Origin: Actinomycetes bacterium
Lineage (GTDB): Bacteria; Actinomycetota; Actinomycetes; Streptosporangiales; Streptosporangiaceae
Reading direction: 5' to 3'
DNA: 64,000 bases
NCBI GenBank assembly: GCA_021793235.1
Contig: JAJYTD010000007.1
Location: 62,001-126,000 of the forward strand
Both the position numbers and the translations under genes were made by a program. A model generated the notes under the pieces. The model made no database searches. It was not told the DNA's origin and was given only the letters and a program-made list of their open reading frames with translations. How positions within the stretch are numbered: position 1 is the first letter of the stretch; each line of letters begins with the position of its first letter. Positions 2,382 to 36,825 of this stretch are shown piece after piece.

Positions 2382-3473
2382 ATGCTGGAACCGCAGATGC
2401 AGCCGCCCTCCGGCCGAGTCCGCCAGCGACCGTCCCCGCGCTGGCGGTCTCAGCCGCGCCCGGATCCCGTGGCGGTGCTGCGCACGGCGCGCGCCATCGT
2501 GGACGATCTCGCGGACGGGCTCACCGGAAACGGCGCCCGCACTGCTGCGCGCCGCCTCCGGGGTCTGCTGGATGTGCAGGGACTGGCGCTGGCGGACCTG
2601 TCCGGATCCCTGCTGTGGTCGGGCCGCCCCGGCGACGACGCGGCCACCGAGACGCTGGTCGAGAAGGTGCTGCACACCGAGACGCCCGTTGGGAGATCCC
2701 CGCTGCTGGCCGTCCCCCTGCACGTCAACGATGAACTCGCCGGTGCGCTGGTGATCTCCGGAACGGTGCGCAGGGCCGCGGTGCGAGAAGCGGCGACCTG
2801 GGTCGTCAACGCGTTGGAACATGCCCGCCTGGAAGCTTCGGCCGATCGGGCGGAACAGGCCGAGCTGCGGGCGCTGCAGGCGGAGATCTCGCCGCACTTC
2901 GTCTACAACGCGCTTACCGTGATCGCGTCCCTGGTGCGCTCGGAGCCCGACCGGGCGCGGGAGCTGATGCTCGACTTCGCCGACTACACCCGCTACAGCC
3001 TTGCACGACGCGGCGCCTACACAACGGTCTCCGACGAGTTCCACGCGATCGAGACCTACCTCGCCCTGCAGCGAGCCGTCCTCGGTGACCGGCTCCGGGT
3101 CCAGATCAGGGTCGCCCCCGAGGTACTCGGTGTGGCGGTGCCCTACCTGATCCTGCAGCCGCTGGTAGAGAATGCCATTCGGCACGGTATCGAGCCGCAC
3201 TCGGGCTCCGGCCTCGTACAGGTCTCCGGTGAGGCCGAAGGCAGTGACTGCGTGATCAGCGTGGAGGACGATGGACTAGGCATGGACCCCGCCAAAGCCA
3301 AGACCGTCCTCGCAGGCAAGGAGCGCACCGACAGCGTCGGCCTGGCCAATGTGGACCGTAGGCTGCGCCACGTCTACGGCCCCTGGTACGGCCTTGTCGT
3401 GGAGACCGCTGTACAGGCCGGCACTCGGGTCGTCGTGCGGGTTCCGAGATTCCAGCCGGGAGTGATTCCGTGA
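2382..3473 (+). CDS. LytS/YehU-type sensor histidine kinase (soluble)
   Basis: Sensor kinase of 363 aa. A GAF-like region spans roughly residues 35-150. The His_kinase domain has QAEISPHFVYNALTVIASLV with the phospho-accepting His near residue 172, and an HATPase domain carries ILQPLVENAIRHG and EDDGLGM. I see no membrane segments, so it should sense a cytoplasmic signal. Its stop overlaps the GTG of the next gene, a LytTR response regulator, so the two form a pair. Placement between acetyl-CoA synthetase and acetate-type symporters suggests that it senses acetate, pyruvate or a related metabolite. The family precedent is the LytS-type pyruvate sensing systems of E. coli. The start is uncertain because the ATG at 2382 lacks a Shine-Dalgarno; the ATG at 2397 is an alternative. 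Confidence 0.88.
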   Translation: MLEPQMQPPSGRVRQRPSPRWRSQPRPDPVAVLRTARAIVDDLADGLTGNGARTAARRLRGLLDVQGLALADLSGSLLWSGRPGDDAATETLVEKVLHTETPVGRSPLLAVPLHVNDELAGALVISGTVRRAAVREAATWVVNALEHARLEASADRAEQAELRALQAEISPHFVYNALTVIASLVRSEPDRARELMLDFADYTRYSLARRGAYTTVSDEFHAIETYLALQRAVLGDRLRVQIRVAPEVLGVAVPYLILQPLVENAIRHGIEPHSGSGLVQVSGEAEGSDCVISVEDDGLGMDPAKAKTVLAGKERTDSVGLANVDRRLRHVYGPWYGLVVETAVQAGTRVVVRVPRFQPGVIP

Positions 3474-23376: not shown

Positions 23377-24129
23377 TCAGGGATGCTGGCTGCTGACGGA
23401 GATCACTTCGCCGGTCATGTAGGAGGAGAGGTCGCTGGCAAGGAACACCACCACGTTGGCGACCTCGTCGGGGGTGGCTCCGCGGCCGAAGGCCTCCTTG
23501 GCGGCCAGGCCGTCCAGCAGTTCACGACTGACCGTCTTCTCCAGGAACGGATGCATCGCCAGGCTGGGGGCGACCGCGTTGACGCGGACACCCGCGGAGG
23601 CCGCGTCCATGGCCGCGCACCGGGTGAACGCCATGACCCCCGCTTTGGCGGCGGCGTAGTGCGCCTGCTTCTCCTGGGCCCGCCAGCCGGAGACCGACGC
23701 CAGGTTCACGATGGTTCCCGAGCGCCGGGGCAGCATGTGGCGGAAGGCCGCCCGCGTGGCTCTGAAGACGCTCGTCAGACTGATGTCGATGACGCGGTCC
23801 CACTCGGCGTCGGTCATGTCGACCACGGCCCGGTCGCCGCCCAGCCCGGCGTTGTTGACCAGGACATCCACGGCGCCGGCCTCGGACACCGCGCGGTCGA
23901 TCAGCGCGTCCACCTGCCGGGTGTCGGAGACGTCGCAGGGGATGGCGATCGGCGGTTCGGCGCTGATGCCGGTGAGGCGTTCGGCGGCTTCGGCCAGTCT
24001 CTGCTCGTGAATGTCGCTGATGACCGGCCGTGCCCCCTCCTCGGCGCACCGCTTGGCTATCGCGTATCCCAGGCCGGCGCCCGCGGCGGCGGTGACCAGG
24101 ACGGTTTTTCCCGCAAGCGAGCCGCTCAT
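23377..24129 (-). CDS. SDR-family dehydrogenase, steroid C/D-ring cluster type (Rv3548c/Rv3549c-like)
   Basis: A 250-aa short-chain dehydrogenase. It has a cofactor loop VTAAAGAGLGYAIAKR, VLVNNAGLGGDRAV, a Ser in NLASVSGWRAQ and the YAAAKAG catalytic Tyr/Lys. The unusual TAAAGAGLG loop, MTDAEWDRVIDISLTSVFRA and the C-terminal end SVSSQHP match the SDRs that I recall from the mycobacterial HIP gene cluster. Its ATG overlaps the stop of the upstream LivF gene by four bases, so it is translated with the transporter. Exact step unknown; oxidation of a ring hydroxyl is likely. Confidence 0.88.
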   Translation of the reverse strand: MSGSLAGKTVLVTAAAGAGLGYAIAKRCAEEGARPVISDIHEQRLAEAAERLTGISAEPPIAIPCDVSDTRQVDALIDRAVSEAGAVDVLVNNAGLGGDRAVVDMTDAEWDRVIDISLTSVFRATRAAFRHMLPRRSGTIVNLASVSGWRAQEKQAHYAAAKAGVMAFTRCAAMDAASAGVRVNAVAPSLAMHPFLEKTVSRELLDGLAAKEAFGRGATPDEVANVVVFLASDLSSYMTGEVISVSSQHP

Positions 24130-24830
24130 ACGCTCACTCCCATTTCTCTCTGGTAGGCCGCGTCGAGCGCGTGGCCACCGCCCTCCTCGATCGCTGTGAC
24201 CTGCCCCCGGACGAGGACATAGCCCCGGTCGATCCGGTCGCGCACCATGGCGATCGAGGGCTCGGCGATCACGATGATCGTTCCCGCGCGGGCGAGTTCG
24301 GCCACACGCTCCAGCAGGTCCTGGACGATGACCGGGGCCAGTCCGGTATTCATCTCGTCCAGGAGCAGCACCTTCGGGTCGCCCATCAGAGCACGGGTGA
24401 CCACGAGCATCTGCTGCTCCCCTCCGGAGAGGACTCCCGCGAGGTTGCGCTCGCGTTCGCGCAGCCGCGGGAACCGGTCGATCGCCACGTCGACAGCGCC
24501 GTGCGGCAGCCGCAATGCCTCGGCCATGACCTGCAGGTTCTCTCGGACCGTGAGGCGGGGAAAGAGCTGGCGCCCCTGGGGGACGATAGCCACTCCCGAC
24601 TTGGCGCGCCGTGCCGGTGGCAGACCGGCCACGTCGTGGCCGTTCACCAGCACACTGCCTGACGCAGCCACCGAGCCGTACAGGCCGAGCAGCAGACTGG
24701 ACTTGCCCGCGCCGTTGGCGCCGACGACAGCCGTGATCTTTCCCGGCGGCGCGTACAGGTCGACTCCTTTGAGTGCCTGGGCCTTGCCGTAACGGACGGA
24801 CAGGTTGCGAACTTCGAGGCCGTTGCTCAT
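24126..24830 (-). CDS. livF: Branched-chain-type ABC transporter ATPase (LivF-like)
   Basis: A 234-aa ATP-binding subunit. It has Walker A GANGAGKSS, the signature LSGGEQQMLVVTRAL, Walker B VLLLDE and the family motif NTGLAPVIVQ. With LivG it powers uptake through LivH and LivM. The start overlaps the LivG stop (ATGA). The position inside a cluster of CoA-linked ring-degradation genes suggests the cargo is a carboxylic acid rather than leucine. Confidence 0.93.
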   Translation of the reverse strand: MSNGLEVRNLSVRYGKAQALKGVDLYAPPGKITAVVGANGAGKSSLLLGLYGSVAASGSVLVNGHDVAGLPPARRAKSGVAIVPQGRQLFPRLTVRENLQVMAEALRLPHGAVDVAIDRFPRLRERERNLAGVLSGGEQQMLVVTRALMGDPKVLLLDEMNTGLAPVIVQDLLERVAELARAGTIIVIAEPSIAMVRDRIDRGYVLVRGQVTAIEEGGGHALDAAYQREMGVSV

Positions 24831-25687
24831 CTGTCCCCCTCTTCCTGGACGCGGTCGGTGGCGGATGCCTCGGGGCGGGCCGAGTCCGCCGCATCCTGCT
24901 GCTGTGCCTGCGCGGTCGCGGTGCCGAAGTAGACCTGCCGCATCTCCGGGCTGCGGAGGCACTCATCAGGTGGACCCTCGAACGCCACCGCTCCCTGGTC
25001 CATCAGAACGACGCGTTCGACCAGGGAGGCCACGATGTCGACGTTGTGGTCGACGAGGACGACACCGTGCCCGCGACCGGAAACGGTCGCGACCGCTCTG
25101 CGGATACCGGCCTCACCTTCGGCGTCGCTTCCCGCGAATGGTTCGTCCAGCAGCAGGACATCGGGTTCCTGGGCCAGTGCACGCGCCACCTCGATGAGGC
25201 GCTGCTCTCCCAGGGTGAGGTCGGACCACAACCGTTGCGGCTCGCTGATGTGCAGCGCGGCGCAGATGCGGTCGACTTCGTCGGCGTCATCGCGGTGCAC
25301 GGGGCGCAGGAGGCTCCGCACTGCTGTGCGCATGATGCCCCACGCACTGCCCATCCGCCGGTGCAGGCGGCCGAGCAGGATGTTCTCCCACACGGTGAGG
25401 TCGGGTGCAAGCTGCGGATACTGGAAGGTCCGGGCGAGGCCAGCCCGGGCGCGCCGGGATGGCGCACCCGATATAACCCGCCCGCGCAGTGTGATCCGCC
25501 CGGAGTCGGCCGACTGGGTTCCCGAGAGCAGGTCGACGAGGGTGGTTTTACCGGCCCCGTTGGGGCCGATGAGTCCGACGACTTCGCCGGGCCCCACGTC
25601 CAGCGAAACCTCTCGGACCGCGCGGACCCCGCCGTAGCTCTTGTTCAGGTCGGCGGCGCTCAGCAGCGCGGTGCTCTCATGCGCCAT
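24827..25687 (-). CDS. livG: Branched-chain-type ABC transporter ATPase (LivG-like)
   Basis: A 286-aa ATP-binding subunit. It has Walker A GPNGAGKTT, Walker B VLLLDEPFAGSD, the H-loop in VLVDHNVDIV and the LivG-type LARTFQYPQLAPDLTVWENI. The signature is LTLGEQRLIEVARAL instead of the usual LSxGxQR, a mild departure. A roughly 30-residue Ala/Gln/Glu-rich tail follows the ATPase domain. The start overlaps the LivM stop by 11 bases. Confidence 0.92.
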   Translation of the reverse strand: MAHESTALLSAADLNKSYGGVRAVREVSLDVGPGEVVGLIGPNGAGKTTLVDLLSGTQSADSGRITLRGRVISGAPSRRARAGLARTFQYPQLAPDLTVWENILLGRLHRRMGSAWGIMRTAVRSLLRPVHRDDADEVDRICAALHISEPQRLWSDLTLGEQRLIEVARALAQEPDVLLLDEPFAGSDAEGEAGIRRAVATVSGRGHGVVLVDHNVDIVASLVERVVLMDQGAVAFEGPPDECLRSPEMRQVYFGTATAQAQQQDAADSARPEASATDRVQEEGDR

Positions 25688-26657
25688 GGGTCCGCTCCTT
25701 TTCCGATTCCAAGGGCACCAGGCGCCGCCACAGGATCCCGAGGTAGCCGAGGATCCCCCGGGGCGCGATCAGCAGGACGACCAGCACCGCGATGGTGAAC
25801 AGCAGGGTTCCGGAGTCGCCGACGCTGCCGAGGTTGAAGGTGAACTGCACGACGATGAGCGCACCCAGGATGGCGCCCCATGCTGTGGACTGCCCGCCCA
25901 GCAATGGCATGAACAGGGCCAAAAAGACCACGTGCAGGATGAATGTCTCGGGGTTGATGGCCTGGTTGAACGTGACGAACACCGATCCGCCCAGGGACGC
26001 CACCGCGGCCCCGGTTCCCAGGGCGACCAGGCGCAGTGTGGGCACGGCGACCCCGGAGGCCTCCACGGCGACCGGAACGTCGCGGGATGCCCGCAGGACC
26101 ATACCGAAGACGCCCTTGCGCAACCGGTCGACCAGGACCCCGATTCCCCAGACCAGAACGAGCAGGACGGGGATGAACAGTTCACGGGTCATCTCCACAC
26201 CGAACAGCTCCATCCGCGGGACGCCGCCGATGCCTGCCGCTCCGCCGCTGAACTCCGGTGTGGAGGTCAGCCATCCCTCGAAGGCGATAGCGAACAGCAG
26301 GGTGACAGCGACCAGGAAGAAGCTGGACAGGCGGCGGGTGGCGAAGCCCAGGACCACCGCTAGCACGGCTGATGCGGCCGCGCCGATGAAGTAGCCGGCG
26401 ACCATGGGCCAGTCGGTCCGGGTGGCCACCAGCGCCACCGCGTACCCGCCGAAGGCCAGGTAAGCGGTGTAGGCCATGGACAGCGACCCCGCGAGGACGA
26501 AGGGGATGTACATTCCCAGTGCCAGCAACGAGTAGGTCGCGGCCAGTGCGAACAGGTCCTGGTTGAAGGGGTTGTCGCCGACCCAGGCGAGGAGGGCGAG
26601 TCCCGCCGCCAGGGTCAGCACCGGTGACAGGTCGTAGCGGTTCAGCAGCTTCCTCAT
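25677..26657 (-). CDS. livM: Branched-chain-type ABC transporter permease (LivM-like)
   Basis: A 326-aa permease with about nine hydrophobic segments. Family features are NPFNQDLFALAATYSLLALG at the N-terminus, LAGSLSMAYTAYLAFGGYAV and the cytoplasmic GVFGMVLRASRDVPVAVEASG loop that contacts the ATPases. ATG 26657 overlaps the LivH stop (ATGA). Confidence 0.93.
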   Translation of the reverse strand: MRKLLNRYDLSPVLTLAAGLALLAWVGDNPFNQDLFALAATYSLLALGMYIPFVLAGSLSMAYTAYLAFGGYAVALVATRTDWPMVAGYFIGAAASAVLAVVLGFATRRLSSFFLVAVTLLFAIAFEGWLTSTPEFSGGAAGIGGVPRMELFGVEMTRELFIPVLLVLVWGIGVLVDRLRKGVFGMVLRASRDVPVAVEASGVAVPTLRLVALGTGAAVASLGGSVFVTFNQAINPETFILHVVFLALFMPLLGGQSTAWGAILGALIVVQFTFNLGSVGDSGTLLFTIAVLVVLLIAPRGILGYLGILWRRLVPLESEKERTHGA

Positions 26658-27526
26658 GTCCGCACCTTCCGCGTGATGAGACCGCTCGGCCGCAGTGCGA
26701 AGAAGAGCAGAGCGACCAGGAGAATGGCGTAGTCCGCGGCAGCGCTGCCGAAGTAGTACGGCGACAGGATCTGGACGGCGGCCAGCAGCATGCCGCCGAT
26801 CAGGGGCGCCCATACCGAACCCGTGCCGCCGATCACGAGTGCGAGGAAGCCCCACAGCGTCCATTGCAGCCCCGAGGTGAAGCTCACCCCGGACTTGTGT
26901 GCGAACAGCAGCCCGGCGAGCCCCGCGATCAGCCCGGACAGGATGAACGCGATCCCTCGGATGCGTGACACCGGCAGACCGAGAAGCTGAGCGGCGTGCT
27001 TGTTGTCGCCCACGGCGCGCAGCATCCGGCCGGTACGGCTGGCTCGCAGCCACCACGCCACGAGGGCGAAGACTGCCACCGTCGCCACCAGCAGCGTCAC
27101 CTGTGGTGCGCTCATCGCGGCGGAGCCCAGCGCGATGGGCTCGAAGCCGAGCAGGGGTTGGCCGGGAAAGTCTCCCCGGCCGAAGATGGTGCCTGCTGCC
27201 TGTTCGATGAGGAACAGGGTGGCGGCCACCGCGACGAGAGCCGGAAGCTCCGCACCACCGAGGCGTGCCTCAATGGGCCGGATGACCGCGACATCGGTGA
27301 CCGCCGCGAGGACGACGGCGATGGCCAGCCCCGCTAGGGCGGCGGCCAGTACCGGGTAGCCGAGCCTGGTCACCAGCCAACTGGTGGCCAGGCCGGCGGC
27401 CATCGCGTACGGGCCAATGGCGAAGTTGAATACTGCCGCCCCGTCGAGGACCAGCAGGAAGCTGAGCGCAAGCAGGCTGAAGAAGCAGCCTACTTCGATG
27501 ATGCTCAGGAAAAGCTGGGGGGACAT
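26654..27526 (-). CDS. livH: Branched-chain-type ABC transporter permease (LivH-like)
   Basis: A 290-aa permease with eight or so membrane helices. The ATPase-contact loop SRTGRMLRAVGDNKHAAQLL and the later GTGSVWAPLIGGMLLAAVQ are characteristic. GAGGAGGACGGGC precedes the ATG. It is separated by about 30 bases from the upstream binding-protein gene, so the five transport genes are one operon. Confidence 0.93.
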   Translation of the reverse strand: MSPQLFLSIIEVGCFFSLLALSFLLVLDGAAVFNFAIGPYAMAAGLATSWLVTRLGYPVLAAALAGLAIAVVLAAVTDVAVIRPIEARLGGAELPALVAVAATLFLIEQAAGTIFGRGDFPGQPLLGFEPIALGSAAMSAPQVTLLVATVAVFALVAWWLRASRTGRMLRAVGDNKHAAQLLGLPVSRIRGIAFILSGLIAGLAGLLFAHKSGVSFTSGLQWTLWGFLALVIGGTGSVWAPLIGGMLLAAVQILSPYYFGSAAADYAILLVALLFFALRPSGLITRKVRT

Positions 27527-27559
27527 GCCCGTCCTCCTCGTCTACCTGTAGGGAGCCGG

Positions 27560-28747
27560 TCAGCAGCTCGGCTGGTACTCATCCCAGGCACCGCTCGGTT
27601 CGCTGCCGTCGAAGACGGTGAACACGACACCGCAGGCTCCGTCGGCCCCGTCGTGATCGTCCTCGGTGTAGGAGACGGTGAAGTCGGGCAGCCCGTAGTA
27701 GGCCTCGAACCCACTGGTGGAGTTCAGTGCCTTGTGGACGTCTGCCGGCTCTGCCGAACCCGTCTCCTCGATGGCGTTGGCGACCATCTTGACGGCGCTG
27801 TAGGCCTGGGCGTCGTAGTCGGTCATCACGTAGTCGTCGTCGTTGGCGGCCTCCATGACCTCGCGGGCCTCCTTGGTCCGCGGGTTCTCATCGGTGATCG
27901 CTCCGACATAGACCAGCCCGTCCAGGGCGCCAGAGTCGGCCTGGCCCCACAGCTGCGGCTGGTTGCCGATCGAGGACAGCGAGAACATCTGGACGTCCTC
28001 GGGCAGGACCTTGTTGGCGGTGTTCTGGTACAGCACCTCGATTTGGCCGCCGACCGTGCTGACCAGGACCGCGTCGGGCTCGGCCTGTTCCACTCGGCTG
28101 AGCTGGGCGGTCACATCCGCGGCATCGGTCGCGGCCTCCTCCTCGGCGACGATCTCGATGCCCGCCTCATCGATCGCGTCCTTCAGCACCTCGTTGTAGG
28201 CGGCCATAGTGGGTGTGTCGTCACTGAGGATGGCGATCTTTTCGGCGTCGATGGCCTCGAAGGCGCCCACGAAGGCTTCGCCCTGCTTGGCGGTGGTGAC
28301 CGCCTGAAGGTACATGTAGTCGGCGTCGGGGTCCTCGATCACCTGTGTCGCGGCACTGGTGACCGGTAGCCCCGGCACCTCGGCCTCCTGCATCACGGAC
28401 TTGTTCGCGATGACCGCGCCGCTGCCCGTCGTGAACATCACCACCGAGGCGCCCTCGCCGATGATGCGGCGGGTGACTGTCGGGCTGCGGCTGGGGTCAC
28501 TGCTGTCGTCGTCGGAGACGACTTCGAGCTGACGACCGAGCACGCCGCCTTCCTCGTTGACCTTGTCCACCGCCGCGCGGACGGCGGCCGAGGTGATCTG
28601 GGAGTAGGCCGCTCCCGGACCGGAGGTGTCCTCGACCAGGCCGATGACGATCGTGTCATCGCCGCCACCACCACCGCCACAGCCGGCGAGAGCCAGCGTG
28701 CAGCCTGCCGCCGCGGCCCCCACCTTCAACCCCAGTTTCCGCTTCAT
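27560..28747 (-). CDS. Periplasmic-type substrate-binding lipoprotein of the Liv transporter
   Basis: A 395-aa lipoprotein with signal MKRKLGLKVGAAAAGCTLA, the lipobox LALAGC and a poly-Gly linker. The mature protein is a two-lobed peripla_BP_6 receptor: TIVIGLVEDTSGPGAAYSQI, VNEEGGVLGRQLEVVSDDDS, TSAATQVIEDPDADYMY. It is anchored outside the membrane and delivers ligand to LivHM. First gene of the operon, so its upstream AT-rich region holds the operon promoter. Ligand is unknown; context points to a ring-containing acid. A Cys pair near the C-terminus (DGACG and QPSC) may form a disulfide. Confidence 0.93.
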   Translation of the reverse strand: MKRKLGLKVGAAAAGCTLALAGCGGGGGGDDTIVIGLVEDTSGPGAAYSQITSAAVRAAVDKVNEEGGVLGRQLEVVSDDDSSDPSRSPTVTRRIIGEGASVVMFTTGSGAVIANKSVMQEAEVPGLPVTSAATQVIEDPDADYMYLQAVTTAKQGEAFVGAFEAIDAEKIAILSDDTPTMAAYNEVLKDAIDEAGIEIVAEEEAATDAADVTAQLSRVEQAEPDAVLVSTVGGQIEVLYQNTANKVLPEDVQMFSLSSIGNQPQLWGQADSGALDGLVYVGAITDENPRTKEAREVMEAANDDDYVMTDYDAQAYSAVKMVANAIEETGSAEPADVHKALNSTSGFEAYYGLPDFTVSYTEDDHDGADGACGVVFTVFDGSEPSGAWDEYQPSC

Positions 28748-28860
28748 GGAAGGACTCCCTAGCTATGGAAAAACATCAATCTTTTAGTATTTAAACTACA
28801 TTGGCCTTCGTGCTGATCACCGGATCGAGGATGAATCCCGCAGAGAAGGAGGGCCCGGCA
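28748..28860. promoter_or_regulatory. Divergent promoter with weak GntR-like box, transporter operon / thioesterase
   Basis: An AT-rich patch lies at 28768-28800, unlike the surrounding DNA. TTTAGTATTTAAA at 28783-28795 has the form TTTA-N5-TAAA and matches 8 of 13 positions of the box GTTAGAAGATAAC found at 31104 and 33104. It is a plausible weaker site of the same regulator. Confidence 0.45.
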
Positions 28861-29316
28861 GTGTCCCAGCCCCAATCCCGCCCCGAATCAGAGCCGGAGG
28901 CGGAGTCGGCCGCTGTGTATTCGGTCGACCACCGGCTCTCCTACGCCGACTGCGATCCTGCGGGAATCGTGTACTACGCCACTTGGTTTCCGCTGATGGA
29001 GCGGACCCACACGGAATGGTGGCTGAGCATGGGATACCGCTTCGACACGTTCGGCGGCACCTACGGCGCCGTTCCGGTGACCCGCCATACCGAGTGCTCC
29101 TATCTGTCTGTCACCCGCCTCTTCGACCTGGTCCGCTGCTCGATGCGGATCGAGGCCGTCGGTCGGACCTCCTACCGGCTCGGATTCGAATTCACCCGCT
29201 CTCCGGAGGGGGAGCGGGTCGCCTACGGGCGGTTGACGCTCGTCAGCATCGACGGTGCTGGAAAGCCCGTCCCGGTACCGCCACCGCTGCGTGAGCTGCT
29301 TGTCCGGCATCGCTGA
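28861..29316 (+). CDS. Acyl-CoA thioesterase, 4HBT hotdog family
   Basis: A 151-aa hotdog-fold protein. The active-site motif SYADCDPAGIVYYATWFPLM (Asp of the 4-hydroxybenzoyl-CoA thioesterase type) lies near residues 27-46, followed by TECSYLSVTRLFDLVRCSMR. It would hydrolyse an aryl or cyclic acyl-CoA, either as a pathway step or to rescue trapped CoA. The GTG at 28861 has AAGGAGGG 7 bases upstream and was preferred over the TTG at 28801 and ATG at 28831. It is divergent from the transporter operon and convergent with the ligase gene. Confidence 0.88.
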   Translation: MSQPQSRPESEPEAESAAVYSVDHRLSYADCDPAGIVYYATWFPLMERTHTEWWLSMGYRFDTFGGTYGAVPVTRHTECSYLSVTRLFDLVRCSMRIEAVGRTSYRLGFEFTRSPEGERVAYGRLTLVSIDGAGKPVPVPPPLRELLVRHR

Positions 29317-29339: not shown

Positions 29340-30995
29340 TCACCGCGTCCCCGAGCCCATCTCGTCCTTGAGCCGTTCGGCCACCAGGCGACGCACCTCC
29401 GCCTTCGCGATCTTGCCTCCGGAGGAGCGCGGCAGCTCGGGCACGACCAGCAGCCGCTCCGGCAGCAGTTCCTTGGAGACGCCGCGCGCCAAGAGGTGCT
29501 CCGTCAGCTCCTCAAGCTCCAATTGCGCTCCCGGATGTGTTGTGACGACCGCGCACACCCGCTCCCCGTACAGCTCGTCGGCTACGGGGACGACCGAGAC
29601 CAGCTCCACGGCCGGGTGGGTCTCCACCTCGGCTTCGACCTCAGCCGCACTGATGTTCTTGCCGCCCCGGATGATCAGATCGGACTTCCTCCCCACCAGG
29701 CGGAGGTAGCCGTCCTCGCCGATGGTGACCAAGTCGCCCATCAGCATGTAGCCGTCAGGGGTGTAGAGCTGGGCGTTGGCCCCGGGGTCGTTGTCGTATC
29801 CGGCGCAGGTCAGCGGCCCCTTTCCACCGGGCTGGCCGGGGCCTCCCGAGGCGGTGATGTCGTTGAAGTCGTCGTCGAACAACCGGACGTCCATCTCCGG
29901 GATCAGCGAGCCGCCCGTACAGAACCGCTGTTCGGCCGAGTCATGGATGGTGGTGTAGCTGAAGGCGCCGGTCTCGTTGGAGCCGAAGAAGTTGAGCACC
30001 ACCGCTCCGGTGCGCCGTTCGAATTCCACCGCCCGTTCATAGGGGATGGCCTCACCGCCGGTGAACATGACGCGCAGCGAGGACAGCCGCGAGCTCTCTG
30101 CCGACGGGGAGTTGAGCAGCATGCGGAACTGCGTGCTGACACAGCACAGGACAGTGACCTGCTCCTGCTCGATCATGTCGATCATGGACTCGGTGGTGAA
30201 GCGGGGCAGCACGACCGTGGAGGCCCCGAGCACGGCCGGCGCGAAGTGGGCCGTCCACAGCCCGAACCCGAACGGCCCCGGAACACCGCCGAAAAGGATG
30301 TCGCTCTCGGAGAGCTCACCGGCCCGACGTGCGAGCTCGACGAAGTACAGCCACCTGTTCTGAAACTGGGTGACGCTCTTGGGCATCCCCGTGGTGCCCG
30401 AGGTGGAGTTGAGCGCCCACAGGTCGTTGGGACCCAGTGCGCGCTCCGCGTACGCGCTGGGGGCGGGCCGCTCGAACTGGGCCGCATCGGCGGTCCGGCC
30501 GTCGGCGTCGACGCGGTGGACCCGCGGTTCGTCCTCGCCCAGGACCATGTGCCAGTCGATCCCGGCACCGCGCTGCGCCAGGACCGCGGGAAACTCCGCC
30601 GCATCGCGGCCGCGGTGTTCGGCCAGGGTGATGAGGGCACGCGCGTTCGTCCGCTGCACCAGGTGGGCGATTTCAGCGTCACCGGCGCGTGCGCCAATGC
30701 CCACGGCCACGACCCCGGCCCGTTCCGTGCCCAGCAGCGCGATGTGGAAGTGGACGGAATCGGGCAGCAGCACCGCCACCCGGTCTCCGGGGCTGAGTCC
30801 GGCGCCGACGAGGGCGCCGGCCACGCGATCGGCCTCAGAGTCGTAGCGGGCCCAGGTTGTACGGCGGTCCGGTTCGATGTAGGCGGCCGTGTCGGGCTTG
30901 GTGCGAGCGTGCTCGCGCACCAGGTCGCTGATGGTGTGGGTGCCCCACCATCCAGCCTCGGTGTAGCGCGTGACGTCTGCTGGATCGACGATCAT
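29340..30995 (-). CDS. AMP-forming acyl-CoA synthetase (ligase)
   Basis: A 551-aa adenylate-forming ligase. Motifs are STSGTTGMPKSV (P-loop, near residue 195), NFFGSNETGAFSYT, MLMGDLVTIGEDGYLRLVGR (hinge) and the C-terminal catalytic Lys in LPRSSGGKIAKAEV. It would activate the imported acid with CoA, the role FadD3 has for HIP in mycobacteria, though it is not a close FadD3 match by eye and looks nearer to cyclic/aromatic acid ligases. ATG 30995 follows AGAGGA. The divergent region upstream contains the strong box at 31104-31116. Confidence 0.9.
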   Translation of the reverse strand: MIVDPADVTRYTEAGWWGTHTISDLVREHARTKPDTAAYIEPDRRTTWARYDSEADRVAGALVGAGLSPGDRVAVLLPDSVHFHIALLGTERAGVVAVGIGARAGDAEIAHLVQRTNARALITLAEHRGRDAAEFPAVLAQRGAGIDWHMVLGEDEPRVHRVDADGRTADAAQFERPAPSAYAERALGPNDLWALNSTSGTTGMPKSVTQFQNRWLYFVELARRAGELSESDILFGGVPGPFGFGLWTAHFAPAVLGASTVVLPRFTTESMIDMIEQEQVTVLCCVSTQFRMLLNSPSAESSRLSSLRVMFTGGEAIPYERAVEFERRTGAVVLNFFGSNETGAFSYTTIHDSAEQRFCTGGSLIPEMDVRLFDDDFNDITASGGPGQPGGKGPLTCAGYDNDPGANAQLYTPDGYMLMGDLVTIGEDGYLRLVGRKSDLIIRGGKNISAAEVEAEVETHPAVELVSVVPVADELYGERVCAVVTTHPGAQLELEELTEHLLARGVSKELLPERLLVVPELPRSSGGKIAKAEVRRLVAERLKDEMGSGTR

Positions 30996-31089: not shown

Positions 31090-31116
31090 CTAACAGCTTA
31101 TGTGTTAGAAGATAAC
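31090..31116. promoter_or_regulatory. Probable GntR operator, ligase / dehydrogenase intergenic region
   Basis: GTTAGAAGATAAC at 31104-31116 has dyad ends GTTA and TAAC around five bases. It overlaps a second dyad, CTAACA (31090-31095) and TGTTAG (31103-31108). The 14 bases from 31103 recur, inverted, at 33104-33117. The site lies about 110 bases from the starts of both divergent genes, inside an AT-rich island. Confidence 0.68.
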
Positions 31117-31225
31117 TATGTTTCATACGAGATAGCAAGAGGTTTCCCGGCAAACTCGCCCGTGGAGCGAGAGCACGCACGGAGGCCCGCACGGAGCCGA
31201 CCGTGCCGCGCTGGAAGGAGCGGCA

Positions 31226-32053
31226 GTGACCCTGGAAACACACGACGTCCTGGTGGTGGGGCTCGGCGGCATGGGAGCCGCGCTGGCACGGCGTATCCGA
31301 TCGTGCGGACACGGCATAGTGGCGGTGGATGTGGCGCCCGGCGCCCGAAGGGAGTGGGAACACGCCACAGGCGAGACCGCGCTGGCAGACCTCTCCGCGG
31401 TGCTGTGGCGGCGGATCGGCCGTGTCCTCGTCGCCGTCCGCTCACCGGACCAGGCAACGTCCGTACTGGACCATCTCGCGGCGCCTCTGGCAGGAACCGA
31501 CACGGCCTGCTATGTGATCACCACGCTGGACGAAGAGACCGCGCGCGGACTCGCGCGGCGCCGCGGCGGCCCCGAACGCGTCATCGAACTACCGATCTCC
31601 GGCGGAGAGGCGGCGGCCGACTCGGGAGCGCTCACGGCTATAGCGGCGGGGCCGGTGCGCGACGCGGACATCGCCTTCCTCACCGCCACGATCGCCGAAC
31701 ACACGGTGGTCTTCGACCACTACGGCGAACCGACCTTGGCCAAGCTGGTCAACAATGTCACCGGTGCCTACAACGCGCTGGTCGCGGCGCAGATGTTGGA
31801 ACTCGGCGAGCGACTCGGACTGCGGCCGCAACGGCTGTACGAGGTGCTGCTCGCCTCCTCAGGCGCGAGCTGGATGGCCGCGGCACTCCCCGATCTCCGA
31901 GGCGACCTGCTGGCCAAGGACGTCGAACTGCTGGCGCGGACGCGCGAGCTCCCCGAGCCGTCCCTGAGCGAACCCCGCCGGCTGGCCGAACGCCTGGCCG
32001 AGGCCGCTCGGCGAGTCGGCGGTTCCGCGCAGGCTCAAGATCAGCGCCCGTAG
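31226..32053 (+). CDS. 3-hydroxyisobutyrate dehydrogenase-like NAD(P) enzyme
   Basis: A 275-aa beta-hydroxyacid dehydrogenase. The N-terminal DVLVVGLGGMGAALARRIRS binds the cofactor, VDVAPGARREWEHA follows beta-2, LPISGGEAAADSGALTAIA is the substrate-side motif, and the catalytic Lys is in LAKLVNNVTGAYN. It would oxidise a 3-hydroxy acid or similar. The GTG start follows AAGGAG by 5 bases. Its 3' end overlaps the convergent GntR gene by 13 bases. It may be co-regulated with the ligase by the box at 31104. Confidence 0.87.
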   Translation: MTLETHDVLVVGLGGMGAALARRIRSCGHGIVAVDVAPGARREWEHATGETALADLSAVLWRRIGRVLVAVRSPDQATSVLDHLAAPLAGTDTACYVITTLDEETARGLARRRGGPERVIELPISGGEAAADSGALTAIAAGPVRDADIAFLTATIAEHTVVFDHYGEPTLAKLVNNVTGAYNALVAAQMLELGERLGLRPQRLYEVLLASSGASWMAAALPDLRGDLLAKDVELLARTRELPEPSLSEPRRLAERLAEAARRVGGSAQAQDQRP

Positions 32054-32826
32054 CCGTGTTTGCCGTTGCCCCGGAGCGCCTGCGGTTCGACGACCGCCAC
32101 CGGCCCCGGGGACATCGCGTAGTGCAGCGTGTTCTCCAGGTGCACCCGCGCGAAGGCCTCCAGCCGTTCGGAGTCGCCGTCCTCGATGAGCCGCATGATG
32201 CGCTCGTGCGCCCGGTTGCCGGTCTCGCGGTGCTCGACAGTGGGGAACTCCCCCGTGGTGCTGGCCTGGGAGGCCCACGCCTGCTCCTGCGACGACCACA
32301 GCGTTTCCAGGGTGCCGACCATCAGGATCATCGTCTCGTTGCCGCACTCGCGCACGAGGGTCTGGTGGAACTCCCTGGTCACCCGGGTGAACTCCACATC
32401 GTCGTCGACCGCGGCCATGGCGTGCTCGTGCACCTGGCGAAGCGCCGGAAGAACGGTCTGGGCCCGGTCCTCGCGGGCGGCGCACAGCGCGGCGCACACG
32501 GGCTCGATCTGCTTGAGCGCCGCTCCGACGTCGGAATAGGGTACACCGCGGAACTGCAGGACCAGTCCCATCATGTAGGCGGCGTTGGCGGCCTTCGGCA
32601 CATGCACGATCGCGCCGCCGCGGTTGCCGCGCTGCACGGTGATCAGGCCCTCGGCCTCCAGGATCCCCAGGGCTTCGCGCAGGGACGGGCGGCTGACCTC
32701 GAACTCCCGAAGCAGTTCCTCTTGGGCGGGCAGGGCGGATCCATCCGCCAGCTCGCCCCGGAGGATGCGGTCCCGGAGCAGGGACGCGACCATCTCCGCA
32801 AGCCGAGGTTGGTGCAGTCGCACCAT
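32041..32826 (-). CDS. GntR regulator, FadR/VanR (FCD) type
   Basis: A 261-aa regulator. The winged helix (residues 5-75) contains ALPAQEELLREFEVSRPSLR, EALGILEAEGLITVQRGNRG. The C-terminal all-helical FCD domain has FTRVTREFHQTLVRECGNET and a metal-binding His pattern ending HERIMRLIEDGD. Such proteins usually respond to a carboxylic acid or acyl-CoA. Its place between the ligase side and the echA20-ipd operon, with identical boxes on both sides, makes it the likely master regulator of the island. Confidence 0.93.
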   Translation of the reverse strand: MVRLHQPRLAEMVASLLRDRILRGELADGSALPAQEELLREFEVSRPSLREALGILEAEGLITVQRGNRGGAIVHVPKAANAAYMMGLVLQFRGVPYSDVGAALKQIEPVCAALCAAREDRAQTVLPALRQVHEHAMAAVDDDVEFTRVTREFHQTLVRECGNETMILMVGTLETLWSSQEQAWASQASTTGEFPTVEHRETGNRAHERIMRLIEDGDSERLEAFARVHLENTLHYAMSPGPVAVVEPQALRGNGKHGYGR

Positions 32827-33237
32827 GTCACAGCCTCGCTTTCCTAGCTTTCCTACCGGTGGACCGGCGCCTCGTCTCGGCCTTGGCGCAGCCTTGATGT
32901 CTTTAAGTCTTCAGGGATTGTAAGCGCGAGGCGGCTTCCACGCGGACGCCGCAGTCCGGCTGTCTGCTCCCATACCCGCACAGGAGGCCTGTCACCTCGG
33001 GAGTTCTGTTCTGTCCCCAGTGCGTTAGCCGGGCTTCGACGCGGATCCGTCTAATCGCATTGCGCCACTCATCTTCTTTACAGAGTAGCTTATAACTATC
33101 TATGTTATCTTCTAACAGAAAGACTCGGCGTTCGGCGCTCTCGGATCGAAATCGGAGAGCACCGGCCGTCACCGCGCCGCGTCCCGCCAATGCCGGTCCA
33201 CTCGCGGCGGGCGCGCGACCCGAAGAAGGGGGACACC
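32827..33237. promoter_or_regulatory. Divergent control region GntR / echA20-ipd operon
   Basis: These 411 bases contain no gene. Bases 33070-33122 are AT-rich and hold the box at 33104-33117 and a dyad ATAAC (33092-33096) / GTTAT (33104-33108). This is about 120 bases before echA20. A second, smaller AT-rich patch at 32893-32918 contains GTCTTTAAGTC and may be the gntR promoter. Confidence 0.55.
33104..33117 (-). promoter_or_regulatory. Probable GntR operator before the echA20-ipd operon
   Basis: GTTATCTTCTAAC (33104-33116) is the exact reverse complement of GTTAGAAGATAAC at 31104-31116; identity extends to 14 bases with the next A/T pair. A repeat of this length in two AT-rich promoter regions flanking a GntR gene is strong evidence of a shared operator. 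Confidence 0.7.
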
Positions 33238-34023
33238 GTGACCGAAGGGTCTGCCGACGGAATCACGTGGCGGTTCGGCACCGATGGTCCAGACACTGGG
33301 ATCGGTGAAGTCGTCATGGACGCGCCGCCGGTCAACGCGCTCACCGTGAACGGCTGGTACGCGCTCGCCGAGGCCGTGCGCACCGTCGCCGCTGCGCCCG
33401 AGGTGCGCGCTCTGGTACTGCGCGCCAAAGGACGCGGCTTCAATGCCGGGGTCGACATCAAAGAGATCCAGGCGGATTCGACCTACCAGAGCCTGATCGG
33501 CGCCAACCGCGGCTGCTTCGCGGCGTTCAAGGCGGTCTATGAGTGCGCGGTCCCGGTGATCGCCGCGGTGCACGGATTCTGCCTTGGCGGCGGGATCGGA
33601 CTCGTCGGCAACGCCGACATCATCGTGGCAACTGAGGACGCCACCTTCGGTCTGCCCGAGGTCGAACGCGGCGCGCTCGGCGCCGCGACCCATCTGAGCA
33701 GGCTGGTCCCTCAGCACAAAATGCGCCAGATGGTCTACACCGCCAAACCCGCGACAGCGAGCGAACTCCACTCATGGGGCTCGGTGGCCGCCGTCGTTCC
33801 CGCGGACCAGCTCATGCCCACCGCGCTCGAACTCGCCGGTGAGATCGCGGCCAAGGACCCCGTTGTCATTCGGGCGGCCAAGGAGTCACTCAACGGGATC
33901 GACCTCTGGGATGTCAACCGCAGCTATCGCTATGAACAGGGCTACACATTCGAACTGAACCTGTCCGGAGCCGCCGACGCGGCCCGCCAGGCGTTCGTCA
34001 CAGGAACGGAGCAGCAGCGATGA
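33238..34023 (+). CDS. echA20: Enoyl-CoA hydratase-family ring-opening enzyme, EchA20-like
   Basis: A 261-aa crotonase-fold enzyme. The segments LRAKGRGFNAGVDIKEIQAD, IGANRGCFAAFKAVYECAVP and FGLPEVERGALGAATHLSRL are nearly word for word what I recall of mycobacterial EchA20. That enzyme opens the last steroid ring D of HIC-CoA intermediates by C-C hydrolysis to give COCHEA-CoA. The oxyanion-hole Gly residues (FNAGVD and LGGGIG) are present. The GTG at 33238 follows AAGGGGG; it opens an operon in which the next start overlaps its stop. Confidence 0.93.
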   Translation: MTEGSADGITWRFGTDGPDTGIGEVVMDAPPVNALTVNGWYALAEAVRTVAAAPEVRALVLRAKGRGFNAGVDIKEIQADSTYQSLIGANRGCFAAFKAVYECAVPVIAAVHGFCLGGGIGLVGNADIIVATEDATFGLPEVERGALGAATHLSRLVPQHKMRQMVYTAKPATASELHSWGSVAAVVPADQLMPTALELAGEIAAKDPVVIRAAKESLNGIDLWDVNRSYRYEQGYTFELNLSGAADAARQAFVTGTEQQR

Positions 34024-34937
34024 CGACATCCGCGCGAACAGCAGCGGTCAATGGCAAGATCCGCACCGAGGACGAGGTCGTCGCCCAACTGAGCGACGGC
34101 ATGACCCTGGGAATCGGCGGCTGGGGCAGCAGGGCCAAACCCATGTCCTTGGTGCGCGCGATCCTGCGCTCTGACCTGCGGGATCTGACCGTGGTCTCCT
34201 TCGGCGGCCCCGACGTGGGCATGCTCTGCGCCGCGAAGAAGGTGAAGCGGGTGGTCTTTCCCTTCGTCTCCCTCGACTCCATCGCACTGGAGCCGCACTT
34301 CCGCAAGGCCCGCGAGTCAGGTGAAGTGGCCGCGACCGAAATGGACGAGGGGATGCTGCTCCTCGGCCTGCAGGCCGCTGCCTGGCGCGTGCCGTTTCTG
34401 CCGACCCGTGTCGGGCTCGGCTCCGACCTGCCTCAGGTGTGGCCCGAGCTGCGGACTGTGCGGTCGCCCTACCCCGGCCCTTCCGGCGACGAGGGGGAAG
34501 AGCTCATCGCGGTACCGGCGATCCATCTGGATGCGGCGATCGTGCACGTCAACCGCTGCGACGCCGACGGAAACGGTCAGATCCTGCGGGCCGACCCCTA
34601 CTTCGACGACCTCTTCCTCGAAGCCGCAAAGAACCGGTTCGTCTCCTGCGAGCAGGTCGTACCCACCAGTGAGCTGACCAACGGTCACCCCGTGCAGTCC
34701 CTCCGGATCCACCGGCTGATGGTCGACGGTGTCGTCGAGGCCCCCGGCGGCGCCCACCCCACCTCGTGCGAACCCGACTATCCGCGCGACGAGGAGTTCC
34801 AGCGCCGCTACGCCGCGGCGGCCCGCGAGGAGGACGGCTGGCCGCGGATCCGCCAGGAGTGGCTCCGAGACTGCGCCGATCACGACAACCGGACGACGGA
34901 CAACGCGAACACCCAGGAAAGGAAGGTCCTGTCATGA
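34020..34937 (+). CDS. ipdA: CoA-transferase-like ring hydrolase, alpha subunit (IpdA-like)
   Basis: A 305-aa class I CoA-transferase-fold protein. GMTLGIGGWGSRAKPMSLVR, VSFGGPDVGMLCAAKKVKRV, EMDEGMLLLGLQAAAWRVPF and MVDGVVEAPGGAHPTSCEPD are the IpdA signature segments. In Mycobacterium and Rhodococcus, IpdAB is not a transferase but hydrolyses the remaining ring (C) of COCHEA-CoA. Overlaps echA20 (ATGA) and is followed directly by ipdB, the partner subunit. The last 25 residues are longer and more charged than usual. Confidence 0.95.
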   Translation: MTTSARTAAVNGKIRTEDEVVAQLSDGMTLGIGGWGSRAKPMSLVRAILRSDLRDLTVVSFGGPDVGMLCAAKKVKRVVFPFVSLDSIALEPHFRKARESGEVAATEMDEGMLLLGLQAAAWRVPFLPTRVGLGSDLPQVWPELRTVRSPYPGPSGDEGEELIAVPAIHLDAAIVHVNRCDADGNGQILRADPYFDDLFLEAAKNRFVSCEQVVPTSELTNGHPVQSLRIHRLMVDGVVEAPGGAHPTSCEPDYPRDEEFQRRYAAAAREEDGWPRIRQEWLRDCADHDNRTTDNANTQERKVLS

Positions 34938-35725
34938 CCTCGGCAGCCGAATCGGTGTCGGAAAGGACCACTCCGGCCGACGTCCGTCGCGCCGACATCT
35001 GCTGTGTGGCGATTACCGACGGTTTCCGCGACGACGGTGAGATCCTCGCCAACCCCATCGGAACGATCCCGACCATCGGCGTCCGTCTGGCGCGCAGACT
35101 CTACGAGCCGCGCCTGGCGATCACCGACGGCGAGGCGATGCTGCTCAACGACACTCCGCCGATCGGCCAGCCCGGTGTCGTCGAGGGGTGGAACCCCTTC
35201 CGGCGGATGTTCGACGTGGTTTGGGGCGGACGGCGCCACGTGGTGATGGGGGCCAGCCAGATCGACCGCTACGGCAACCAGAACCTCGCCGCGATCGGGG
35301 ACCCCGCCCAGCCCAGTGTGCAGCTCATCGGGTTCCGCGGCGCACCCGGGAACACCATCAACAACACCACCAGCTACTGGGTCCCCGGGCACTCGAAGCG
35401 CGTCTTCGTTCCGCGTGTCGACGTGGTCTGCGGCATCGGTTACGACCGCGCCGCCGAACTCGGCCCGGAAACGGCCAAGTCCCACGAGATCCGCCAGGTC
35501 GTCACCGACCTCGCGGTACTCGACTTCGCCACCGACGACCGGCGGATGCGCCTGCGTTCGGTCCACCCCGGAGTCAGCGTGGCAGACGTGGTCTCCGCCA
35601 CCGGGTTCGACCTGGCCGTGCCGGACGATGTCCCGACCACCCGCATGCCCACCGCACAGGAGCTCGCAGAGCTGCGGCGCCTCGACCCCGACGGCCTCCG
35701 GTACCGGGAGGTGAGCGCGGCATGA
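34934..35725 (+). CDS. ipdB: CoA-transferase-like ring hydrolase, beta subunit (IpdB-like)
   Basis: A 263-aa partner of IpdA. Recognisable segments are PTIGVRLARRLYEPRLAITD, WNPFRRMFDVVWGGRRHVVM, GASQIDRYGNQNLAAIGDPA, FRGAPGNTINNTTSYWVPGH and KRVFVPRVDVVCGIGYDRA. Together they match IpdB. The ATG overlaps the ipdA stop and its stop overlaps the next ATG. Forms the heteromeric cytoplasmic ring-opening hydrolase. Confidence 0.95.
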   Translation: MTSAAESVSERTTPADVRRADICCVAITDGFRDDGEILANPIGTIPTIGVRLARRLYEPRLAITDGEAMLLNDTPPIGQPGVVEGWNPFRRMFDVVWGGRRHVVMGASQIDRYGNQNLAAIGDPAQPSVQLIGFRGAPGNTINNTTSYWVPGHSKRVFVPRVDVVCGIGYDRAAELGPETAKSHEIRQVVTDLAVLDFATDDRRMRLRSVHPGVSVADVVSATGFDLAVPDDVPTTRMPTAQELAELRRLDPDGLRYREVSAA

Positions 35726-36825
35726 GCCGACGACCGTGGCACACCCGGGCCACGGAGCTCTTCGGCGTCCGCTACCCCATTGTCCAGACCGGAATGGGAT
35801 GGGTATCGGGAGCGGGCCTGACGGCCGCCACCGCCAACGCCGGCGGGCTGGGCATCCTCGCCGGGGTGACCCTGTCCGCTGAGGAGCTGCGCAGCACAGT
35901 GCGCCGGGTGCGGGAACGCACCGACGCCCCGTTCGGGGTGAACCTCCGTGCCGACCTTCCCGACCTCGGCGACCGGCTCGCGCTCCTTTCCGAAGAGGGA
36001 GTGCGGATCATCTCCTTCGCCGGCGCACCGACACCGCGGACGGTGGAACTGGTGCACGAGGCCGGTGCGGTCTGCGTGGGCACGGTCGGGATGCGGCGCC
36101 ACGCGGAGAAGATCGTGGCGGCCGGGGCGGACGCGGTGATCGCCCAGGGAGGCGAGGGCGGCGGACACACGGGCCCGGTCCCCACCACTCTCCTGCTGCC
36201 CGCGGTCCTCGACGCCGTTGGCGACCGCGTCCCCGTTCTCGCGGCCGGCGGCTTCTTCGACGGCCGCGGGATGGCGGCCGCGCTGTCCTTCGGCGCGGAC
36301 GGCATCGCCATGGGCACGCGCTTCCTGCTCACCCAGGAGAGCCGCGTCCCCGACCACATCAAGCGGCGCTACCTCGACACCGGGCCGACCGGGACGGTCG
36401 TCACCACCGCGGTCGACGGGATGTCCCAGCGCCTCATCCGCACACCCGTGGTGGACAGGTTGGCGGACGGCGGCCCACTGCGCCGGATACTGCGCGCCGC
36501 CACGACGATCCCCCGCCTGCGCGAGGTGACCGGGCAGCCCCTGTCCGCGTCCCTGCGCGAGGGCTGGTCCATGCGGCGCCACCAGGGACGCAGCCTCGCC
36601 CAGGTGGCCGCCGCGGCCAACGCCCCACTGCTCATCAAGGCGAGCTTGGTCGACGGGGACGACAGCGCCGGCATCCTGCCGACCGGCCAGGTCACCGGCA
36701 ATATCGATGACCTCCCCACCGTCGCCGAGCTCATCGACGGCATCGTCGGCGACGCGGCCCGGGCACTGGACCGTGCGCGCCGGATCACAGACGATCCGGA
36801 ATCCGGGGGTGGCCATGAACGGTGA
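35722..36825 (+). CDS. ipdC: Nitronate-monooxygenase-family flavoenzyme, IpdC-like
   Basis: A 367-aa FMN-dependent TIM-barrel enzyme. YPIVQTGMGWVSGAGLTAAT, NAGGLGILAGVTLSAEEL, VIAQGGEGGGHTGPVPTTLL and VLAAGGFFDGRGMAAALSFG match IpdC, the enoyl reductase/desaturase that prepares the bicyclic HIP-CoA intermediate for ring cleavage in steroid degraders. A true nitronate monooxygenase is less likely given the gene order. The start overlaps the ipdB stop and the next gene begins 11 bases inside this one. Confidence 0.93.
   Translation: MSRRPWHTRATELFGVRYPIVQTGMGWVSGAGLTAATANAGGLGILAGVTLSAEELRSTVRRVRERTDAPFGVNLRADLPDLGDRLALLSEEGVRIISFAGAPTPRTVELVHEAGAVCVGTVGMRRHAEKIVAAGADAVIAQGGEGGGHTGPVPTTLLLPAVLDAVGDRVPVLAAGGFFDGRGMAAALSFGADGIAMGTRFLLTQESRVPDHIKRRYLDTGPTGTVVTTAVDGMSQRLIRTPVVDRLADGGPLRRILRAATTIPRLREVTGQPLSASLREGWSMRRHQGRSLAQVAAAANAPLLIKASLVDGDDSAGILPTGQVTGNIDDLPTVAELIDGIVGDAARALDRARRITDDPESGGGHER

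Follow-up and report, generated by a model that had tools for sequence, protein, structure and literature searches.

Candidate operators of an FCD-type GntR regulator in two promoter regions of an actinomycete ipdAB-type ring-degradation cluster

Regulators of the FadR (FCD) subfamily of GntR proteins combine a GntR HTH domain with an FCD domain and use palindromic, AT-rich operators, many of them in divergent promoters that flank the gene of the regulator, and the locus described here resembles them in all of these respects. The subfamily consensus is TKGT/ACMA with 2 to 3 bases between GT and AC, the exceptions including NanR and BioR (Suvorova et al., PMC4494728). Boxes of this kind at a distance of 2 to 3 bases, a frequent though not invariable feature of the subfamily, are absent from the consensus obtained here from relatives, CTATCTTnTAnAAGATAG, an 18-bp palindrome centered on TA; it has TCTT as its half-site and lacks a GT/AC pair, and its center comprises 4 bases (nTAn), which is the spacing described for HutC regulators. 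NanR and BioR are likewise FCD-GntR proteins with operators outside the common consensus, but NanR uses direct repeats and BioR uses TTATMKATAA, neither of which equals CTATCTTnTAnAAGATAG (PMC4494728). Clusters comparable to the present one are controlled in mycobacteria and rhodococci by KstR2, whose regulon also has a local regulator, sites in several divergent intergenic regions, and echA20/ipdAB-type genes together with an acyl-CoA ligase gene (PMC3068626). In contrast to our locus, KstR2 is a TetR-family protein that reads the palindrome AnCAAGnnCTTGnT, and it is absent here. Literature searches for a GntR protein with ipdA/ipdB, or with KstR2 and HIP, returned no relevant paper, and no report of the operator CTATCTTnTAnAAGATAG was found. 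The locus offers a directly testable regulator-operator pair for actinobacterial ring-degradation clusters, hitherto described under the TetR regulator KstR2, and an atypical FCD-GntR motif that is useful for specificity codes.

The window, i.e., the whole 64-kb stretch of DNA that was analyzed, contains the 14-mer TGTTAGAAGATAAC at positions 31103 to 31116 (+) and its exact inverted copy at 33104 to 33117 (-), as the sequence-only reading of this DNA had described. Both copies are intergenic and the GntR gene is located between them (Table 1), and the AT-rich islands of that reading were recovered as dips to 44 to 56% GC (100-bp windows) against 69% overall. No further match was found in the window at up to 3 mismatches, while the whole genome (4.82 Mb) holds exactly two exact copies and one other place at 2 mismatches, so that the full 14-mer does not occur at random across the genome. 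Among 14-mers with at most 6 G/C, this is the only one repeated in the 64 kb, the remaining repeated pairs being GC-rich (144 inverted pairs in all and 129 direct ones). Considering that the genome has only two exact copies, the lack of any other low-GC 14-mer repeat, and the intergenic AT-rich positions, the repeat is real and chance does not explain it.

Table 1. Candidate regulatory sites and surrounding genes in the window
Feature	Coordinates	Strand	Basis and context
Candidate operator 1, TTATGTGTTAGAAGATAA	31098..31115	+	Exact repeat; matrix rank 2 of 64 kb; divergent promoter region of ligase (-) and dehydrogenase (+)
Weaker adjacent copy, CTATGTTTCATACGAGAT(AG)	31116..31133	+	Matrix rank 3, 18.8 bits, core 31117-31132
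Candidate operator 2, TTATCTTCTAACAGAAAG	33105..33122	+	Exact repeat; matrix rank 1 of 64 kb, 28.2 bits; intergenic between GntR (-) and echA20 (+)
Promoter-like TTTACA-18-TATGTT for echA20-ipd	33077..33106	+	Consensus scan, 1 vs 0.0 in shuffles
Possible third operator, CAATCTTTTAGTATTTAA	28777..28794	+	Matrix rank 4, 16.8 bits, core 28778-28793; weak; 4 mismatches vs consensus; divergent promoter of solute-binding protein (-) and thioesterase (+)
GntR-family regulator, 261 aa, GntR HTH + FCD	32041..32826	-	Pfam PF00392, PF07729
Acyl-CoA ligase, presumed regulon member	29340..30995	-	PF00501; adjoins operator 1
3-Hydroxyisobutyrate-dehydrogenase-like protein, presumed regulon member	31226..32053	+	PF03446, PF14833; downstream of operator 1
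Operon: EchA20-like hydratase, IpdA-/IpdB-like CoA-transferase subunits, IpdC-like flavoprotein	33238..36825	+	Downstream of operator 2
SDR and branched-chain-type ABC transporter genes, possible regulon members	23377..28747	-	Downstream of possible third operator
4HBT thioesterase-like protein, possible regulon member	28801..29316	+	PF13279

The GntR protein matches both the HTH family (E value of 1e-17; 64 bits with a cut-off of 27) and the FCD family (E value of 9.5e-17; 62 bits with a cut-off of 24.3), and its best match among solved structures is NanR. The EchA20-like hydratase scores 402 bits against PRK07938 (cut-off, 260); two CoA-transferase subunits are present, and the ipdA-like gene is single copy in the genome. 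We take these genes to be ipdA, ipdB, and ipdC on the basis of gene order, the sequence-only reading, and our reading of the family matches. The operon continues downstream with genes for an SDR, a hydratase, and acyl-CoA dehydrogenases, and the ABC transporter set comprises two ATPases, two permeases, and a solute-binding protein. The dehydrogenase (+) and GntR (-) frames converge, their 3' ends overlapping by 13 bp (32041-32053).

For comparison, GntR homologues were gathered from the family, from GTDB genomes, and from the class, and the surrounding DNA was extracted. The loci of the closest homologues (57 to 77% identity; Actinomadura sp. KC216, G140, G015, an actinomycete MAG, Virgisporangium, and G183) contain related palindromes, variably degenerate, in promoters by GntR, echA, or ipdC or upstream of a GntR-containing operon, the clearest sites being CTATCTTTTAGAAGATAG and CAATCTTGTAGAAGATTG. 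The conserved symmetry of these sites is centered at 31106|31107 and 33113|33114 in the window; the shared 14-mer spans the center and one half of the consensus as well as a flank, and each window site has one good half (TTAGAAGATA) and a degenerate second half. In the window and the related loci together, TATCTTNTANAAGATA was found 7 times at up to 2 mismatches (29 rearranged palindromes averaged 0.45) and 17 times at up to 3 mismatches (average, 2.0), counts that include a duplicate as some loci are present twice. A matrix trained on 18 sites, all outside the window, ranked 33106 (28.2 bits) and 31099 (19.3 bits) as the top two of the 64 kb, followed by 31117 and 28778, and only 0.2% of column-permuted matrices gave two equally strong matches. 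In addition, a site of 29 bits is present at the GntR locus of L133, a homologue outside the training set. The offset palindrome is conserved beside GntR orthologues from several genera.

A search of 299 family genomes for the pattern at up to 1 mismatch gave matches in 25 genomes, which is not above the control overall; 9 of these 25 near-exact matches lie less than 10 kb from a homologue of the window GntR, including all 3 exact ones, each at ∼1.7 kb. The chance expectation for such proximity is ∼0.01, as estimated from the share of the DNA that lies no more than 10 kb from such genes, and the nine matches are not fully independent, being from related genera. Total counts of the degenerate pattern show no excess over the control in the window's own genome or in the family, and only the locations are special. 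Of all genes in the 13 loci that were compared, only GntR has a homologue in every one, which is partly by design since the loci were picked by GntR. Motif scans of the own genome comprised patterns and selected stretches. At 3 mismatches the count there did not exceed the control, and these matches were rejected as extra regulon members, the few inspected (one upstream of an SDR gene on contig C38) being without support; a sequence-only covariance model of the motif returned no matches in the own genome, and because it missed the known sites as well, this result is uninformative. Operator 1 fits the relatives' consensus only moderately, and because other AT-rich stretches among those selected from the own genome reach 20 to 23 bits, the 31099 site is supported by where it lies and by being identical to operator 2. 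Within 1.5 kb of more distant homologues the motif is mostly absent and is therefore a property of only some family members.

The protein alignment bears on the same assignment. All 13 aligned homologues match both the HTH and the FCD domains, and the 13 GntR proteins with motif loci (that of the window and 12 others) share their DNA-reading residues, invariably carrying Asp or Glu at the position of Arg35 of Escherichia coli FadR and Arg or Lys at that of Arg45. Asp at the FadR Arg35 position accompanies a G/C pair, probably contacting the C (Suvorova et al., PMC4494728), and the operator base in that register is C here (TCTT instead of TKGT). This agreement fits the assignment of this GntR to this operator without proving it, and Asp/Glu is also frequent in homologues that lack the motif. 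Arg/Lys at the Arg45 position was rejected as a predictor of the motif: among 56 homologues the median motif scores did not differ (P = 0.25), and an association was confined to the upper end of the score distribution (P = 0.01), which is partly circular as some of these loci trained the matrix.

Taken together, both boxes are very probably operators of the FCD-type GntR encoded between them, which would repress the ring-degradation cluster. The earlier proposal that they are sites of the neighboring GntR and join the flanking transcripts in one regulon thus gains strong comparative support at the level of sequence, its half-sites excepted, and the regulon may also include the third promoter, in front of the ABC transporter and thioesterase genes. 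The GntR protein, presumably as a dimer, would read the 18-bp palindrome. At echA20 it would most likely repress, because the sole promoter-like match has its -10 hexamer in contact with operator 2. At the ligase/dehydrogenase promoters, operator 1 and the weaker adjacent copy, whose center is 18 bp away, may together mediate repression in both directions; paired sites were also seen in the SDR/thiolase promoter of locus L037. Autoregulation of GntR is uncertain, since operator 2 lies ∼280 bp from the GntR start. Release from the DNA would follow when a pathway intermediate, probably a CoA thioester of the ring substrate, occupies the FCD domain; a pathway CoA thioester is the likely effector by analogy with HIP-CoA, the effector of KstR2 (PMC9782250). 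Binding, dimerization, the effector, any autoregulation, and repression rather than activation are steps that we infer from this arrangement.

The same protein could instead bind here and activate the flanking operons, which we regard as unlikely. Some GntR proteins act as dual regulators, and the consensus scan found no promoter-like sequence at operator 1 by which to place this site; against this, the contact of operator 2 with the -10 element of the only promoter-like match is a position typical of repressors.

It is quite improbable that the sites are operators of another regulator encoded elsewhere, e.g., a TetR protein such as KstR2, with GntR as a bystander. The KstR2 control of comparable clusters cited above speaks for this alternative, and collecting loci by GntR biases the shared-gene comparison toward GntR; however, GntR loci were also reached when the motif, and not GntR, was the starting point of the search. 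Moreover, a KstR2 query verified against the solved KstR2 found no orthologue in the own genome (best match, 26% identity; E value of 1e-17), and of the 12 window matches to the differing motif AnCAAGnnCTTGnT at up to 3 mismatches, none is in the two promoters. KstR2 was therefore rejected as the regulator in this genome. Orthologues of KstR2 (64 to 82% identity) are present in all 12 GntR-bearing relatives tested.

The ipdAB/echA20-type cluster of the own genome (G000) is present, yet KstR2 is not its only missing companion: no KshA_C match was found in this 99.97% complete genome, nor a close KstD-like protein (best PRK12845 score, 80 bits, versus 550 to 570 in three relatives). Judging by gene content, steroid A/B-ring opening is probably missing from this genome. 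Considering the absence of KstR2, KshA, and a close KstD, an intact steroid is probably not what the cluster degrades, and its substrate may be a different ring acid; ipd-type pathways would thus be indicated in an organism seemingly unable to open steroid A/B rings. In G140, the sole ipdA is in the GntR cluster, far from the genes for KshA, a KstD-like protein, and KstR2; a regular expression detected no KstD in the KshA neighborhood of this genome, and a family search found the KstD-like gene. A similar layout has been described for Thermomonospora curvata, in which the cholate genes and the C/D-ring genes form separate clusters (PMC4810484). The best explanation is that GntR fills the role that KstR2 has elsewhere, as an acyl-CoA-responsive repressor of an ipd-type ring-degradation cluster. 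More tentatively, it is conceivable that an FCD-GntR clade with an operator outside the FadR rule (TCTT-nTAn-AAGA, with HutC-like spacing) controls ipdAB-type ring-opening clusters, and that here the cluster, under GntR and not KstR2, is detached from steroid A/B degradation and serves some other bicyclic or alicyclic carboxylic acid taken up through the adjacent ABC transporter.

The sequence-only reading had placed the operator core in the dyad GTTA-N5-TAAC, centered ∼3.5 bp from the conserved symmetry. That GntR recognizes this dyad is very improbable and we rejected it as the core: although both copies show it in perfect form, its genome-wide count is 5, compared with 4 for the reversed control, i.e., at the background expected of random occurrence, 2 of the 5 matches are at an unrelated TetR gene, and there is none in 300 kb around the relatives' GntR genes, whereas the offset palindrome CTATCTTnTAnAAGATAG is conserved there. 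A tandem GTTA-N5-TAAC pair (GTTAGCTGCTAAC and GTTAGCGAATAAC) was observed on own-genome contig C47 at 415257 to 415284 (locus L165, about 1958-1985), at the start of a TetR gene that is followed by an ABC transporter gene; these palindromes are probably that TetR's own operators, unrelated to GntR.

A chance repeat in AT-rich promoter DNA without regulatory role is hardly credible, for although AT-rich islands make AT-rich matches likelier, and 0.44 matches per window are expected when up to 3 mismatches are allowed, with 8 of 100 shuffles giving two, both matches are exact, form the sole low-GC 14-mer repeat of the window, and recur as a conserved motif in equivalent promoters of other genera.

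Some further features of the GntR proteins were noted. The metal-ligand Asp that FCD domains usually carry four residues ahead of the FH-motif His is replaced by Thr in the alignment (residue 150 of the window GntR), and His154, His207, and His229 are kept. A different palindrome (CAATCCTTATAAGGATTG and similar) occurs near GntR in loci L030 (around 1380-1400) and L015 (around 3135-3155), whose GntR proteins are distant homologues with His or Tyr at the FadR Arg45 equivalent, and it is perhaps a co-evolved operator. In genus g37 (loci L041 to L046), several genomes have two such GntR homologues ∼4 to 20 kb apart in one cluster.
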